Origin: a virus
Virus record (IMG/VR): IMGVR_UViG_3300046168_000001
Span: 1-58,751 of that record
Direction: 5' to 3' (one strand)
DNA length: 58,751 bases
Below, piece by piece: positions 1-58,751 of the stretch. Each line of letters begins with the position of its first letter. Positions within the stretch are counted from its first letter, which is position 1. The notes under the pieces are model-generated. The model worked only from the letters and a program-made list of their open reading frames with translations. It was not told where the DNA came from and ran no database searches. The position numbers were made by a program, and so were the translations under genes.

Positions 1-280
1 GTCCCCAAGGTTCCTCATAGTCCTCTAACAGTACTCCTGATCGGGTAATAGTCTTAGTAAAGGGTTCTATATACCCCTTATAGATACCATTAGTAGCTCT
101 ATAAGGCTCACTGACAGCCCTTAAAGGTACAAAGAGTAGGTATAGTACCTAAAAAGCCTAGCGGCGACTGAGCGAAGAGAGAAAGACACTATAAGTATCC
201 CGAAGGGATTCAAAGACATGATTGAATGATTAAGAGTACCCTGAGTGATTGAGGGGGTACGAAAGTAATCAGGGTACTCA
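1..280. repeat. Terminal direct repeat, left copy (280 bp)
   Basis: These 280 bases recur exactly at 58472-58751. The length fits the direct terminal repeats of T7-like phages, which are made during concatemer packaging, but the overlap of a circularised assembly would look the same. The repeat holds a phage-type promoter (68-83) and a hairpin (197-209). It ends almost exactly at the far arm of an inverted repeat (234-244 with 269-279). Confidence 0.85.
68..83 (+). promoter_or_regulatory. Putative phage RNA polymerase promoter upstream of terL
   Basis: TATATACCCCTTATAG, one of six unique sites. The 3' end TATAG resembles the -4 to +1 part of T7 promoters, so initiation is predicted at G83. 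It lies inside the terminal repeat and points at terL. The assignment rests on repetition, orientation and the presence of a T7-type polymerase gene; it is inference. Confidence 0.75.
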
Positions 281-22172: not shown

Positions 22173-22609
22173 ATATAGATAAACTAAGAGAAGAACTTAA
22201 GGCTGATGAGGGATGTAAGTATGAAATCTACTTGGATCATCTTAACCTCCCTACACACGGTATTGGTCATCTTATTCTTGACAGCGATCCTGAGTATGGA
22301 CAAGAAGTTGGCACACCAGTCTCGGAAAATAGAGTTAATGAGTGTTTCGCTAAAGATGTCGAAACGGTGTTATCGGAGTGCAAGAAGTTATATTCCAACT
22401 TCGAACTTTTGCCTGAAGAAGTCCAATTAATTATTGCTAATATGATGTTTAATATGGGCAGACCTCGGCTTAGTAAGTTTGTAGGGATGAGAGCAGCTGT
22501 AGACTCTGGTGATTGGCACAGGGCTGCAGTAGAAATGGTTGATAGTAAATGGTATCAACAAGTAACAAATCGTGCTGATCGGCTTGTACAAAGGATGAGA
22601 GCAGTTTAA
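22169..22609 (+). CDS. Endolysin, GH24 (T4 lysozyme family)
   Basis: 146 aa muramidase that cleaves the MurNAc-GlcNAc bond of peptidoglycan. The catalytic triad spacing matches T4 lysozyme (E11, D20, T26): here E14 in ADEGC, D23 in YLD and T29 in PTHGIGH. There is no signal peptide, so release depends on the holin just upstream (ATGA overlap). Length is close to the minimal family size. A phage promoter follows at 22613. Confidence 0.92.
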   Translation: MNIDKLREELKADEGCKYEIYLDHLNLPTHGIGHLILDSDPEYGQEVGTPVSENRVNECFAKDVETVLSECKKLYSNFELLPEEVQLIIANMMFNMGRPRLSKFVGMRAAVDSGDWHRAAVEMVDSKWYQQVTNRADRLVQRMRAV

Positions 22610-22612
22610 TAG

Positions 22613-22628
22613 TATATACCCCTTATAG
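22613..22628 (+). promoter_or_regulatory. Putative phage RNA polymerase promoter upstream of nrdJ
   Basis: TATATACCCCTTATAG, identical to the copies at 68 and 1991. Predicted start at G22628, 34 nt before the nrdJ ATG, whose AGAGG site lies in the leader. It re-initiates transcription halfway through the long plus-strand unit, ahead of nrdJ and the tail/ejection genes. Confidence 0.75.
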
Positions 22629-28681: not shown

Positions 28682-28684
28682 GTA

Positions 28685-28852
28685 ATGTCAATTCAAAACC
28701 CTCCTATCACAGAGCAACCTGCTTTAGATTTTACATTGCTTGAGATGGTAAGATTAATAAACGATCTTGAACAACAAAACATAAAGCTGCTTAAAGATAT
28801 TAGAGAGTCTACTAACTTTGCTGATTTGCAATCAAAGGTAAACCAACAATGA
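28685..28852 (+). CDS. Small hypothetical helical protein
   Basis: 55 aa: a Pro-rich start (SIQNPPITEQPALDFTLLEM) and an amphipathic helix (INDLEQQNIKLLKDI). It starts 3 nt after the nozzle stop and overlaps the next start by 4 nt (ATGA). Known small proteins at this place in marine podoviruses have no assigned function. Confidence 0.6.
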   Translation: MSIQNPPITEQPALDFTLLEMVRLINDLEQQNIKLLKDIRESTNFADLQSKVNQQ

Positions 28853-29333
28853 TAAAACTTATAGAGGACAATGACGTATTTGAAGCTATACAGCTTATGA
28901 ATAAGTCAACTAAGAAAATCTATACGGTGGATACGAAAGAAACGAAGCCATATGGATTTCTTTTTTCTTAAAAATTGTAGCCAAACAAAAAGAAAACAAT
29001 CCACATTATATTGCTATTGGTGATTATAAAGATAATAAACTTATTGGGTTTCTTTTAGCTTCTACATTTAAAAGTTATTATAATAACATATATACTATGG
29101 ATGTTAAGGATTGTATTGTAGATAAAGATACAGCAACTCCTTTTACTGTAACTAAATTATTCGATGCGATGATTAATCATGTAAAGGTTCATGGTGGATC
29201 ACGATGGAGAGCAGACTCTATTCGGATGATAGAACATTCAGAAAACTATGTTAATTTACTAAAGTTAAAATACGGTGCAGAGACTTACTACTCAGCACAT
29301 GGTATTATAAATCAGGAGAATGCAAATGAGTAG
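28849..29333 (+). pseudogene. GNAT-like acetyltransferase / gp13-like protein split by a frameshift
   Basis: Two frames together make one ~160-aa protein. From the ATG at 28849 the first 40 codons (LIEDNDVFEAIQLMNKSTKK...) end at a TAA (28969-28971). The -1 frame continues with WISFFLKIVAKQKENN, PHYIAIGDYKDNKLIGFLL and RWRADSIRMIEHSENYVNLL to 29333. The break sits at a run of six T (28961-28966); one missing T would explain it. The continuation has the beta-strand/helix rhythm of GNAT folds and the final NLLKLKYGAETYY element. T7 internal protein gp13 at the same place is GNAT-like, so this may be its counterpart. Sequencing error, true mutation and -1 slippage are all possible. Confidence 0.7.
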
Positions 29334-42729: not shown

Positions 42730-45048
42730 TTAGGCAAAGAAGTAATCAGATTCATAGATCTGTGTTACGTCTAGGTTGCCTAGCTCTGGTTGCTCTACGT
42801 CAAGGTTAGTAGCATCAGTAATGATGTTTTGTTGTATCAAGTCGTAGTAATTTTCTTTATCATACATTTCGATAAAGCTCTGTTTAGTCCTTGCTAATAG
42901 TGCTTCGACATCACATGCATGAGTGCTAAAGGAATCATGGACTGCTCCGAAATCACCGTTCCATTCCTCAATAACCAATGCCATATGACTGGCATCCTGA
43001 CTGTGAATGTAGTTAGGACTGACACCACACATAAATCCGCGAATGTCTGGGGTCTTCGTAGGTACTCTTGCCACATGGTTCACTCCTTTGTGTCCTTTAG
43101 ACTGAGACTTATAGCCACTTATAGTACCTCTACATTTTCGTGTAGCTGTAGTATAGTTCTGATAGATTACCTTAAACCCTGATGGTGTTACCCATGAGAG
43201 GTCGCTTCTACCGTTGCCATGTATCAGTTTACTTTTGTACGATCTAAGAAGTACTGTGAGTGTGTTGAGGTGTTCAATCTCTTCATCAGTTTTATCTTTC
43301 TTTGTGTACAATTCTTTCTGATCCTTGACCAGTTGTTTGTATTCTGGCCCAGCAGGTTCATTTTGATTATTGTATTTTAAATATTCACCTATCTCATACT
43401 GTGCTAGTTTTTGCAAGTATGCCATAGTATGCAGGGGTCCTGGGCATACAAGGTTGATTGCTTTAATTAGTAGCTTAGCTAGTTTATCACAGTCATCTTG
43501 TGTTATCCCATACTCTATGTGAAAGTCCTCTGCTTTACAATCAAAGAACATATTCTCAGCAATCTTCTTTGCACCTGCTGAGTATGCTCTTGTCATACTA
43601 CCACGTTTAGATATAGCTTTTCTAATATGTTTCATTGGCATCTGATCAAGAATGTCTTTAAGTCTTTCATCAGTTGTCAAATGGTACAGCTGCTTAGCAG
43701 TCTGAACATAGAAGTCATGTTGTATATCTACTGGTATTAGCCCTACAAGCCTCCCTGTCTGGCTGTCTTTAGAAATAGCACCTAGATGCTGCCAACCATT
43801 GTTAGACCCGTCTATGGGCACTGGAAGGTGGCTAACGTGGATTCTATTATCTTTGACTGCTCTTTGGTAATCAAACCACTCAAAGCAACAGGCTAGGAAT
43901 GACACAGATTTCTCTGCTATATCTGCTACGATACCTCTCCTACCCATTTCGACAATAACTTCCATGTTATCGTTAGTCCACCTTACCCTGTCCTCAAGGG
44001 TAAACTTATCTACGCTTATAGACTCTAGCTTTTCTTCTTCTAGGTATCCTGCGTAGTCAGCCTCACACCAGTCAGGTATCTCATCTATGTTATAACTCTG
44101 GTTGAATGTATTGGCTGTGTGTACAGCTAACCAGAAGAGACCGTCCTCTGTCATAGGTTTACCTCTAGCAAAGGTCATCATACCTCTGGCTAGGTCAGAC
44201 CCTTGATAGTTTAGGAAGGACTCTGAGTAGTATAGCCTACCCCTATAGTCTGCTTGCATGAACTGATAGAAGACATCGTGATCATATAGCAGCTTAGCTT
44301 TAGTAGTAATGAAACCCCACTCTACTAGTTTGCTTCTTCGTTTCATTTCTTTAGCGTCATTATCATCTATTGGTGTTGATGACACAAATGAATCTTTGTT
44401 TTCTATAAGAGTATCATACACACGCTGGTTAATTCTCCATCCAGTGCGTTGTAGTTTGTTTACTGAAGTAACCCAGGGGGTTCCAATCATAGGTTCAAAC
44501 CTTGCGTTGTCCTCTTCAGTCCACTCTTTAATTACAGGTTCACCATCTGGCTGTATGATTTTTGATATTCTATCCGGTCTTTCTAACACAGTATGTGTCA
44601 AAGAAATCCTCATCATTGCCTCTGGTATGTCAGCAAGATCTATCCACTTAGCTGTAGCTGATACAATATAACTAGTATCCCTTGTCTTTGGGTAGTATAT
44701 ATCTATGTACCCACAGTTATAGAATGCCTCTATGAAGAGATCACCCAACCTCACATGCATGTTCCAGGGTAACCCAGGGGGTTCCCTTTTGATTACACGT
44801 GCTATGCGTTGACCTATTGCTGTAGATACAGCTGTCAACTGTGCAGTCCCTGCAGGACTATCTGAGGTATCGTAGGTGAATCTCATTTGTATTGTTTGGA
44901 AAGCCACATTTATTAGTCGTGGCATTTCCTCTTTGTATTCTTTATACAATCTCAGAAGTACACCACCTGAGTTTGCCTTAGGGTTATTCGGATTAACCCT
45001 TGAGACCTTATCAACTAGGTACTCTGAGATGTTGTCGAATGGATTCAT
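42730..45048 (-). CDS. T7-type single-subunit DNA-directed RNA polymerase
   Basis: 772 aa, slightly shorter than T7 gp1 (883). The catalytic core is complete. DYRGRLYYSESFLNYQGSD (about 267-285) matches the T7 DWRGRVYA element. Motif A DGSNNGWQH has D413 (T7 D537). Motif B has K481 and Y489 (T7 K631, Y639). Motif C VHDSFST has D705 (T7 D812). The C-terminal ESDYFFA parallels the ESDFAFA end of T7. The N-terminal promoter-binding domain is short and divergent, fitting the novel promoter motif found here. It would transcribe all units that have TATATACCCCTTATAG. Located near the end of the operon driven by one of those promoters. Confidence 0.95.
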   Translation of the reverse strand: MNPFDNISEYLVDKVSRVNPNNPKANSGGVLLRLYKEYKEEMPRLINVAFQTIQMRFTYDTSDSPAGTAQLTAVSTAIGQRIARVIKREPPGLPWNMHVRLGDLFIEAFYNCGYIDIYYPKTRDTSYIVSATAKWIDLADIPEAMMRISLTHTVLERPDRISKIIQPDGEPVIKEWTEEDNARFEPMIGTPWVTSVNKLQRTGWRINQRVYDTLIENKDSFVSSTPIDDNDAKEMKRRSKLVEWGFITTKAKLLYDHDVFYQFMQADYRGRLYYSESFLNYQGSDLARGMMTFARGKPMTEDGLFWLAVHTANTFNQSYNIDEIPDWCEADYAGYLEEEKLESISVDKFTLEDRVRWTNDNMEVIVEMGRRGIVADIAEKSVSFLACCFEWFDYQRAVKDNRIHVSHLPVPIDGSNNGWQHLGAISKDSQTGRLVGLIPVDIQHDFYVQTAKQLYHLTTDERLKDILDQMPMKHIRKAISKRGSMTRAYSAGAKKIAENMFFDCKAEDFHIEYGITQDDCDKLAKLLIKAINLVCPGPLHTMAYLQKLAQYEIGEYLKYNNQNEPAGPEYKQLVKDQKELYTKKDKTDEEIEHLNTLTVLLRSYKSKLIHGNGRSDLSWVTPSGFKVIYQNYTTATRKCRGTISGYKSQSKGHKGVNHVARVPTKTPDIRGFMCGVSPNYIHSQDASHMALVIEEWNGDFGAVHDSFSTHACDVEALLARTKQSFIEMYDKENYYDLIQQNIITDATNLDVEQPELGNLDVTQIYESDYFFA

Positions 45049-51743: not shown

Positions 51744-51757
51744 GCGTTTTGTCGGTT
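51744..51757 (+). repeat. GCRTTTTGTCGGTT motif, copy 2
   Basis: GCGTTTTGTCGGTT, one substitution from the other two copies, followed by CTAAAA as at 55990. Copies 1 and 2 also sit in a 16-codon frame (51709-51759), in which each encodes FVG; this is more likely chance than a gene. Confidence 0.5.
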
Positions 51758-55780: not shown

Positions 55781-56006
55781 GTTTCCAAATCCTCTCTTCA
55801 TGGTGACCTGCCCATGAACTAGCGTTGTTTTCAGCAAACTCAAAGATTGTCCACTCTACATCATCGTTAGTTCCTTCAGCAACTGTTCTGCGTCTGTCGG
55901 CTATAGAAAGTAAACGTTTGTAGACTCTGGCTTCAAAGGAATCTTTGAGAGCATCTGGTTCTGTAAATAGATTAATCGTAAGTCTCCATGCATTTTGTCG
56001 GTTCGA
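55773..56006 (-). pseudogene. Open frame without a normal start codon
   Basis: 77 sense codons with no ATG, GTG or TTG, opened by TAG at 56007-56009 and closed by TAA at 55773-55775, which overlaps the next gene by 8 nt as its neighbours do. The product from INLFTEPDALKDSFEARVYK through LLSIADRRRTVAEG to EERIWKHV looks like a real protein. An ATG at 55986-55988 (METY) reads into it after removal of one base. So it is either frameshifted, cut by the adjacent gene-free block, or started at ATT. The opening codons overlap the GCATTTTGTCGGTT motif. Confidence 0.5.
55990..56003 (+). repeat. GCRTTTTGTCGGTT motif, copy 3
   Basis: Exact match to copy 1 at 51711-51724. It marks the left edge of the 56007-56735 gene-free block and the broken 5' end of the adjacent frame. 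Could be a recombination junction or a binding site; nothing is proven. Confidence 0.5.
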
Positions 56007-56735
56007 CTAAAATTATCCGAGAGTAGCCCAAGGTTTCCCAAGGCTATCTCTGATGTTTGTACAAGGCTCCAATAGAGCAGGGTGGGCTACTATTTAGCCC
56101 TGCGAACATAAAGTGTCCCGAAGGGACTCAATAATAAATATACAAGCGCCTCTGGTGCTTCAAGGCTAACTAAGACCGAGCACACAGAGTCGCTATACGA
56201 AACTGGCGAGATGTGGTGTAACAGTGTGACGGGATATGTTCCAGTTTAGTATGTTACAAACGCTGTCAGTGCATATAATTCTGTACAGGCCAAGACAGAC
56301 TCACTCGGCACAGTTGAAGCTGTACCACTACCCTCGCAAGGCAGCATTGCAATTTGAAGATGCGTGATCTGTAATTAGACCACGACTAGCTGTTTTCACC
56401 GGAATTGGTGCATACGGGACGCTTCTCTCCCCGTCTTGACTATATGCAGCACTGAACATCCGAGTCTTACTCTGCGATGTGCCCCACCATACTTATAAGT
56501 GTACCGCGCTTTGGGTTCTTTTGATGTATACTACGCTCTCACCGAGCTTCCACGTTTTTTCATTCTGTTACCATGTGTCCTATTGCTAGGCTAGACGCTT
56601 TTCCAATATGCTAGTCGTAGTTTGCAACACAGTGGGTACAGGCTATTGTGCCTGAGTTTCAGAGATAAACTGCAGCGGTTCTGCAGCACGTAGTATATGA
56701 AGAAAGCAGTTTAGTGTCATGCTAAGGACATAGAA
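56007..56735 (-). ncRNA. Candidate large structured noncoding RNA
   Basis: 729 nt with no credible gene in any frame, in a genome whose genes otherwise overlap. Many stems are visible (plus coordinates): AGTAGCCC near 56020 with GGGCTACT near 56090; GTCCC/GGGAC at 56115-56127; AAGCGCC/GGTGCTT near 56140-56157; AAACTGG (56200-56206) with CCAGTTT (56241-56247) interlaced with TGTAACA (56217-56223) and TGTTACA (56252-56258), a pseudoknot topology; CGTGATCT/AGACCACG (56363-56384, one mismatch); ACGGG/CCCGT nested in TGCATA/TATGCA (56409-56448); CAGGC/GCCTG (56639-56654); CTGCAG/CTGCAG (56670-56686). It would be transcribed with the early minus operon. Size recalls GOLLD- or ROOL-type phage RNAs, but I cannot match either. 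A replication origin is the main alternative. No tRNA recognised. Confidence 0.5.
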
Positions 56736-57248
56736 TTAGAACAGATCGCTAGGTGACCCTTGAACTTCTGCAGTTGGCTCAATAGAACCTACAGCTTCAA
56801 AGTCTACACCACCAGTTGGTGCATAGACTACAAGGTCTGTGATCTGAATAGCTGTGAGTGAGCTTGCAACGCCCTTACGACCAGCAGTGTCATATGGGTA
56901 TTGAAACACAATCACGTTAGCTTTGGAACCATTACCGATTGTGGTAACAGACTCCATAGGTGTGAGATCAGAGTTGACCACACGTACCTTGCCGTTAGTA
57001 TCACCATTTGCCTTGTGAGCTTTACGCTTAAGACTAGCAGTGAACATACCAGCAGCATCTTTGACCAATGCTCCATCTTTCCTACGGAACATGACATAGT
57101 TCTCTTCAAGCTCTTGGACTTTAGTTTCATCAGCAGTAGCAATTTGTAGCTCATACTGTTCAGTACCAAAAGGATTGACAGGCTTGTCAAGTTTAGGATA
57201 GTTGATAGTTACGTCATTGATCTTGAAATTACGTACTTCTGTTAGCAT
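56736..57248 (-). CDS. Single-stranded DNA-binding protein (T7 gp2.5-like)
   Basis: 170 aa. FKINDVTINYPKLDKPVNPF followed by GTEQYELQIATADETKVQEL is the typical start of the phage gp2.5-type SSB family; AIQITDLVVYAPTGG closes the OB-fold. The C-terminus ends in SPSDLF, acidic/aromatic as in SSBs that recruit replication proteins. It coats ssDNA at the fork. AAGG lies before the start. A 14-bp palindrome (57273-57286) lies in the leader. Confidence 0.88.
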   Translation of the reverse strand: MLTEVRNFKINDVTINYPKLDKPVNPFGTEQYELQIATADETKVQELEENYVMFRRKDGALVKDAAGMFTASLKRKAHKANGDTNGKVRVVNSDLTPMESVTTIGNGSKANVIVFQYPYDTAGRKGVASSLTAIQITDLVVYAPTGGVDFEAVGSIEPTAEVQGSPSDLF

Positions 57249-57272
57249 GGGATATTACCTTCCTAGCAAGTT

Positions 57273-57286
57273 ACACAATATTGTGT
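57273..57286. promoter_or_regulatory. 14-bp perfect palindrome in the ssb leader
   Basis: ACACAATATTGTGT, 25 bp upstream of the ssb ATG. It could be an operator for a dimeric repressor or the top of an mRNA hairpin that controls ssb translation; T4-type SSBs are autoregulated, but no such evidence exists here. Confidence 0.45.
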
Positions 57287-57489
57287 TGATGATCAGATAT
57301 TGTAACGTGCACCCCTCCGCAAGCAATCTTATTTCTGGCTTTCACAGATTCATCAAGGGTAGTCTACATTTTTAAGTACACACCTGTTTACCCACATGAG
57401 GTTCTAATTAAAGCTGAATCATGTATGGTTACAGTATCTGAAGAGGTAAGATGTCAGTTCATTGTTCTGTACCATCTTACCAATTTGAG

Positions 57490-57508
57490 GACGCAGCTTG
57501 TCTGCGGC
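57490..57508. other. CTTGT-loop hairpin, second copy
   Basis: Stem CGCAG (57492-57496) with CTGCG (57502-57506) around CTTGT. Compared with 51240-51258, outer bases and loop are the same while two stem pairs differ in a compensating way (AG/CT to CA/TG), as expected for a conserved structure. Confidence 0.5.
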
Positions 57509-57515
57509 CTTCTTG

Positions 57516-58287: not shown

Positions 58288-58471
58288 GTGAGACTCCTGT
58301 GTTAGGACAAGAGGATTCTTATCCATTGTGAAGACAAACCGAGGTACGAGTGTTTGGCTCTTATAGTACTCTATGGTTACTTTAAGTACTCTATGTATCT
58401 ATAGATACTTATATGTATATAGAGTTACATTCCAAAGAGGTTTCTATAAGGGGTATATACAATTGAACATC
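58288..58471 (-). promoter_or_regulatory. Early control region
   Basis: No gene. It holds an 11-bp direct repeat AGTACTCTATG (58365-58375 and 58385-58395), a perfect palindrome GTATCTATAGATAC (58395-58408), AT-rich blocks that could be host sigma-70 elements reading leftward (e.g. TATAAG near 58360), and the phage-type promoter at 58444-58459. Host RNA polymerase must start the first round, and this is the likeliest place. Confidence 0.5.
58444..58459 (-). promoter_or_regulatory. Putative phage RNA polymerase promoter for the early minus operon
   Basis: The reverse strand reads TATATACCCCTTATAG; predicted start at 58444, leftward. Together with the terminal-repeat copy at 58539-58554 it makes a divergent pair 80 bp apart, covering the two largest transcription units. 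Confidence 0.75.
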
Positions 58472-58751
58472 GTCCCCAAGGTTCCTCATAGTCCTCTAAC
58501 AGTACTCCTGATCGGGTAATAGTCTTAGTAAAGGGTTCTATATACCCCTTATAGATACCATTAGTAGCTCTATAAGGCTCACTGACAGCCCTTAAAGGTA
58601 CAAAGAGTAGGTATAGTACCTAAAAAGCCTAGCGGCGACTGAGCGAAGAGAGAAAGACACTATAAGTATCCCGAAGGGATTCAAAGACATGATTGAATGA
58701 TTAAGAGTACCCTGAGTGATTGAGGGGGTACGAAAGTAATCAGGGTACTCA
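58472..58751. repeat. Terminal direct repeat, right copy (280 bp)
   Basis: Exact copy of bases 1-280, so the window closes on itself. It carries a second copy of the plus-strand promoter at 58539-58554. In a concatemer or circle, that promoter faces away from the minus-strand promoter at 58444-58459, so the junction is the divergent control region for the terL operon and the early minus-strand operon. Confidence 0.85.
58539..58554 (+). promoter_or_regulatory. Terminal-repeat copy of the terL promoter
   Basis: Same sequence as 68-83 within the right terminal repeat. In a linear genome with true repeats it points off the end; in a concatemer or circle it drives terL. Confidence 0.7.

Follow-up and report, generated by a model that had tools for sequence, protein, structure and literature searches.

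In T4-type phages, the elements known as promoter early stem-loops are mobile cassettes. The single-stranded DNA-binding protein (SSB) of T4, gp32, binds a pseudoknot of about 28 nt in its own mRNA, the gene 32 operator (PMC535899, PMC3014915). The phage-encoded RNAs GOLLD and ROOL are several hundred nucleotides long, contain many helices and pseudoknots, and are of unclear function (PMC12286853). Short pseudoknotted RNAs also occur as ToxI, the RNA antitoxins of type III toxin-antitoxin systems, and are known to be mimicked by phages (PMC3475682).

The window analyzed here is the whole 58,751-nt stretch of IMG/VR virus record IMGVR_UViG_3300046168_000001. It contains a noncoding block of 729 nt (56007-56735), read as minus-strand RNA, between ssb and the next gene of a minus-strand operon; unless stated otherwise, all features below lie on the minus strand. 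The ssb gene (56736..57248) encodes a gp2.5-like single-stranded DNA-binding/annealing protein of 170 amino acids (PHROG 112; E value, 1.1e-15). Its stop codon forms the 5' edge of the block, whose 3' edge is marked by a ACCGACAAA box (55994..56002), conserved even in distant relatives, and by the next gene's leader, which lies near 55994. The same box also occurs at 51756, 51723, and 50310 in minus-strand gene leaders, sometimes in a hairpin loop. In the window and close relatives, the gene that follows the block apparently starts with ATT (about 55981-55983), where L008, L009, and L016 have ATG.

A sequence-only reading had described this block as gene free, rich in strong local stems, and deviating in base composition, and all of this was borne out. 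No open reading frame (ORF) of at least 60 amino acids started or ended within the block, its small ORFs ranged from 20 to 46 amino acids (the longest), and Pfam matched none of the ten ORFs tested (two from the block, the rest from the block of seven relatives), and a decayed protein gene was rejected on this basis. The G+C content was 0.44 to 0.47, versus about 0.33 to 0.43 in adjacent sequence windows, and nine inverted repeats of at least 7 nt within 120 nt were present. The block is poor in ORFs but is not the only silent stretch: almost no genes lie in 57249-57515 (5' of ssb), in 28682-29096, or in 58327-337 either. Folding of the minus strand gave a score that, coming from a single sequence, is moderate (z = -2.9, with 0 of 20 shuffles equally good), versus z = -1.35 for the plus strand.

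Like GOLLD and ROOL, the block is phage encoded, spans several hundred nucleotides, and has many helices and pseudoknots. Unlike them, it has no tRNA neighborhood, is mosaic in its makeup, lies within an operon, and matches no Rfam family: the covariance-model comparison suggested earlier (GOLLD, ROOL, and others) yielded no gathering-level match to Rfam 15 across the whole window, and only sub-threshold matches (E values up to 5) at the window end and in six loci bearing the block or its ends. Membership in these or other Rfam families was thus rejected, as was a tRNA or tmRNA identity, since no such gene was found in the window. No nucleotide relatives of the block were found among GenBank phages. 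The block opens with 28 nt that the sequence-only reading had overlooked and that are predicted to form a separate, very widespread pseudoknot, here called motif X.

Relatives were gathered from IMG/VR by their ssb protein, yielding 27 and later 80 loci. About 25 related contigs conserve the block; a homologous noncoding block lies 3' of ssb in contigs whose ssb exceeds about 80% identity and which carry enough sequence. The closest cultured phage, judged by RNA polymerase (38%) and portal (55%), is Roseobacter phage CRP-7, from which both the block and motif X are absent. Among close relatives, the block measures 254 to about 890 nt, and its modules (designated M1 to M4) are present, absent, internally replaced, shortened, or moved. 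In L008, L009, and L013, ssb is preceded by M1 and M2, and what remains downstream is limited to motif X, M4, and the end hairpins. An insert in L015 is homologous to the window's own ssb 5' leader (57249..57515), a companion noncoding region in which relatives likewise have exchangeable modules and some relatives have copies of motif X. The sequence UC(U/A)UCA recurs at several module junctions (33 sense versus 4 antisense occurrences in the blocks of 14 relatives, with 5.1 expected); in the window, UCUUCA junction tails are found at 56698..56703 and 56355-56360. As these comparisons show, the block forms a mosaic array in the 3' untranslated region of ssb, consisting of motif X, exchangeable structured modules, hairpins resembling terminators, and the next gene's leader. 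Distant relatives (L077, L085, L087, L100, L101, L116, and L125) have other closed RNA modules at this place beside ssb, along with hairpins whose conserved loop resembles CCACAGGG and precedes TTTAAAAAGA.

In the window, M1 (56527..56697; 9 sequences) is closed by TATACTACG/CGTAGTATA, M2 (56354..56526; 14 sequences) contains covarying hairpins, and M3 (56199..56353) contains the interlaced helices 56258-56252/56223-56217 (7/7) and 56252-56241/56206-56195 (12 nt, 92%). M4 (56143..56196) is a 54-nt hairpin with a CUCUG/CAGAG stem, replaced by CUCUA/UAGAG in L008. Then follow a terminator-like UUCG-loop hairpin, GTCCCTTCGGGAC (56115..56127), with a weak T tail and similar hairpins in distant relatives; a G+C-rich hairpin, GCAGGGC..GCCCACCCTGC (56077..56103), in whose place L003/L006/L015-L020 have other hairpins; and a last hairpin, GAGATAGCC..GGGCTACTC (56021..56050). 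Consensus folding (alifold) against column shuffles gave z values of -3.6 (M1), -3.9 (M2), and -5.1 (M3+M4) on the sense strand and of -3.1, -1.1, and -4.7, respectively, on the opposite strand; for comparison, the ssb coding sequence gave -1.3 to -2.9. Double-change cells numbered 10 versus 2.7 in shuffles for M2 (0/500) and 2 versus 0.2 for M3+M4 (5/500), compensatory changes being scarce owing to the high similarity of the sequences. G-U outnumbered A-C combinations by 65 to 0 in M2 to M4, counted in structures predicted on the minus strand itself. M3+M4 were 87 to 97% identical to the window in L016, L020, L022, and L023, versus 52 to 73% at ssb four-fold sites, a contrast that fits either strong constraint or the passing of modules from genome to genome. 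In IMG/VR, the M2 and M4 hairpins were not found outside the window's phage group.

The proposal of a giant phage RNA thus survived in part. A structured, conserved minus-strand RNA is supported by the consensus folds, by some compensatory changes among relatives, where such covariation had been called for, and by retained G-U type variation; the interlaced helices of M3, probably the pair noted earlier, form standard pairs in 94 to 100% of the relatives' cells. What did not stand is a single discrete RNA of the GOLLD/ROOL type, given the mosaic architecture and variable length.

Motif X (56703..56730) comprises stem S1 (UGUC/GACA), stem S2 (AGCA:UGCU), and the loop CUAAAC, with S1 starting 5 nt after the ssb stop codon. 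Its consensus is S1-CUNAGCA-N-S1'-N-UAAAC-UGCUNN, and the window copy reads TGTC-CTTAGCA-T-GACA-CTAAAC-TGCTTT. IMG/VR was scanned with the invariant letters only, leaving S1 out of the pattern. Though unused for selection, S1 varied through all four Watson-Crick pairs with compensation, and it reached at least 3 bp in 117 of 123 matches (among those listed in the first scan; our own chance estimate is about 15%). Variants in relatives include CTTC/GAAG, AGAT/ATCT, TGAG/CTCA, and CACAC/GTGTG for S1 and UGAGCA:UGCUCA, UAAGCA:UGCUUA, and UCAGCA:UGCUGA for S2, and helix variation extends to relatives whose ssb is just 37 to 58% identical. In 60 thinned sequences, pairing was 88.3% versus 70.9% in shuffles, double-change cells numbered 110 versus 39.6 ± 6.1, and covariation reached 0.428 versus 0.123 (0/500 in each case), with slid controls at 0.147 or below. 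Because the search pattern itself dictated the inner four pairs of S2, these are uninformative on covariation; pair 7-27 occurs as G-C, A-U, C-G, or G-U, and the window copy, with U opposite U at this position, has a weaker S2. As judged by covariation, this free variation of the stems with compensation shows that motif X is an RNA pseudoknot of the H type. Counts of G-U versus A-C, which bear on the strand, were 14 versus 10. Model R1 scored the window copy at 38.6 bits (E value, 1.6e-10), a value high by construction because this copy is among the model's own rows. A weak partial match (13.5 bits; E value, 0.02) lies at 22598-22616, antisense to the local genes and next to a promoter-like motif.

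No Rfam 15 family matched four loci with the consensus motif X (sub-threshold matches only), and no description of the motif was found in open-access papers. Motif X resembles ToxI in being a short pseudoknotted RNA. It differs in lacking tandem repeats of one unit, except for two adjacent copies in the uncultured crAss-like genome cr7_1, and presumably also in sequence. Within the window, GCAGUUUA of M1 (56666-56673) is complementary to UAAACUGC of motif X (56706-56713). M1 likewise has GCAGUUUA where X has the weaker CUUAGCA (L002, L022, and L023), and L029 has GCAGAUA where X has CUGAGCA. From this complementarity, an alternative pairing between M1 and motif X appears possible.

Among the matches listed by exact-pattern scans, motif X was present in more than 200 viral contigs, a lower bound in which the diversity of the family is also under-sampled, and it occurs in cultured phages. 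It lies behind ribonucleotide reductase (RNR) in SIO1 and Celeribacter phage P12053L, and further carriers are the cobaviruses Lentibacter ICBM1 and ICBM2, Lactobacillus phiEF-1.1 and phig1e, Synechococcus S-H35 and S-EIVl (five copies), Nostoc NMeng1, Mycobacterium Labelle, and Paracoccus ParMal1. Carrier genomes have 1 to 6 copies, mostly 1 or 2. In bacterial genome contigs, S1 was present in 41 of 73 exact matches; in the Ignavibacteria chromosome CP054675, copies occur in CRISPR spacers (L306 1777 and 3038, L319 6755), and a CRISPR array was seen around the two L306 sites.

Among the matches listed, 115 of 117 sites were intergenic. The distance from stop codon to S1 peaked at 5 nt (33/222 listed sites) and was often 5 to 8 nt. 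In about half of the listed sites S1 began 3 to 12 nt after a stop, the remaining half having no called stop nearby because ORF calls were mechanical. The distance to the next gene was broad, with a start codon often 20 to 35 nt away on the same strand; in close relatives of the window, motif X lies 5 to 7 nt behind the ssb stop, and the next gene about 250 to 890 nt away. Genes upstream, again among the matches listed, were Hsp20-like (28/222), class II RNR (19/222), ssb, and many singletons, and those downstream fell into 153 clusters among 208. These data show that the placement of motif X is tied to the stop codon of the upstream gene. A role in stop readthrough or frameshifting was rejected: near sites listed used UAA in 83 of 106 cases and UGA in 3, and median extensions were 14.5 (frame 0) and 13 (frame -1) codons.

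In recoding signals, 5 to 8 nt is the usual spacer for a pseudoknot abutting a ribosome that has the codon in its A site. S1 would begin at the mRNA entrance of a ribosome positioned on the stop codon, leaving motif X outside the terminating ribosome; given a spacing of 5 to 8 nt, a ribosome terminating on UAA thus need not unwind it. We consider it plausible, though short of probable, that motif X serves the upstream gene in cis, as a compact element at its 3' end. It might block 3'-to-5' exonucleases or fix the message end or a processed 3' end, and M1 to M4 might supply the operon with additional, exchangeable elements for processing or stability. The model as a whole, in which motif X protects or defines the mRNA end, is tentative to the same degree. 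It is favored by the sharp spacing to the stop codon, the broad downstream spacing, the varied upstream genes, the ordinary terminator that cyanophages have at this place behind hsp20, the T-run enrichment given below, and, against readthrough, the preference for UAA; against it stand the roughly one-half of sites not close to a called stop, the marked fixity of S2 and UAAAC, and the few compensatory pairs in M1 to M4. Since most genomes have only 1 or 2 copies, motif X is not a general mRNA cap.

The main rival, which we regard as unlikely, is that motif X is a protein operator, bound by a phage protein (here SSB itself) for feedback control as by T4 gp32, with the downstream A/U-rich RNA taking up further protein. 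The gene 32 operators of T4, T2, and RB69 share with it the topology of an H-type pseudoknot of about 28 nt linked to a phage SSB gene, a short L1 with an A-rich crossing loop, and UUAAA/UAAA elements (PMC535899, PMC3014915), the topology of motif X being deduced from pairing and covariation. Moreover, most members of the window's family have motif X next to ssb, and S2 and UAAAC are strongly fixed, more so than a pure roadblock would need; this suggests a specific binder, part of the fixity stemming from the search pattern. In contrast to the gene 32 operator, however, motif X follows the stop codon in the window and the majority of the relatives, a position 5' of ssb being seen in only a few cases (L078, L088, and additional copies in L023), and its fixed CUNAGCA/UAAACUGCU sequence stands behind many other genes, its neighbors being mostly Hsp20, RNR, capsid-type, or unknown genes rather than ssb.

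Rather improbable is a pseudoknot-type transcription terminator, in which motif X together with a T tract or a phage factor would end transcripts. A T run follows motif X in 22 of 117 sites versus 6 of 110 controls (among the matches listed), and in cyanophages an ordinary hairpin terminator occupies the place of motif X behind hsp20. Yet with a T run in just 19% of sites, motif X is no ordinary terminator: four fifths of sites lack one, the next gene often follows on the same strand within 20 to 35 nt, a genome typically has only 1 or 2 copies, and in the window motif X is followed by UCUUCA rather than by U's, so that an intrinsic terminator (hairpin plus U tract) was rejected there. Motif X does resemble intrinsic terminators and promoter early stem-loop cassettes as a small structured intergenic element shuffling between loci in related phages, but it is a pseudoknot without an obligatory T tract or promoter, and M1 to M4 are larger than such cassettes and without promoters. 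That motif X is a cis-regulator or riboswitch of the downstream gene is very unlikely; next start codons are often close and H-type pseudoknots are common among riboswitch folds, but spacing is sharp toward the upstream stop and broad downstream (hundreds of nucleotides in the window's family), and the downstream genes are highly varied. Least credible of all is that the 729 nt form one giant trans-acting RNA of a new class, since the strong conservation of M3+M4, the internal pseudoknot, and the lack of ORFs are set against extreme mosaicism, relocation of M1 and M2 across ssb, the operon position, and the absence of the phage promoter motif at the block.

A repeated TATATACCCCTTATAGA-like motif occurs at 58541-58557 (= 70-86), 1993, 22615, and 51208 on the plus strand and at 58444-58457 and 51272 on the minus strand. 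It is likely the promoter of the phage's T7-like RNA polymerase (gene at 42730-45048), its direction being judged from the gene layout. An exact 280-nt direct repeat is present at both ends of the window (1-280 and 58472-58751); since L001 reads across one copy, the assembled genome may be a circle, or it may have terminal repeats.

The value of the finding is the pseudoknot heading the block, not a giant RNA. A 28-nt RNA found in so many viral contigs and in cultured model phages, and absent from Rfam, would point to an unrecognized layer of posttranscriptional control in phages. The boldest reading, about as tentative as the 3'-end model, is that motif X represents an undescribed RNA class of phages of many host phyla, kept at a fixed distance behind the stop codons of key genes. 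It would then act not via a host-specific factor but via machinery that all bacteria share, be it the ribosome, an exonuclease, or RNA polymerase, and in these marine phages the ssb region would be a hot spot collecting larger structured RNA cassettes behind motif X. The fixed stop-codon spacing makes motif X directly testable in SIO1 and the Lentibacter cobaviruses, and bacterial CRISPR spacers matching it indicate that hosts meet it. Motif X may also serve as a marker for phage sequence and as a small pseudoknot for structural work.
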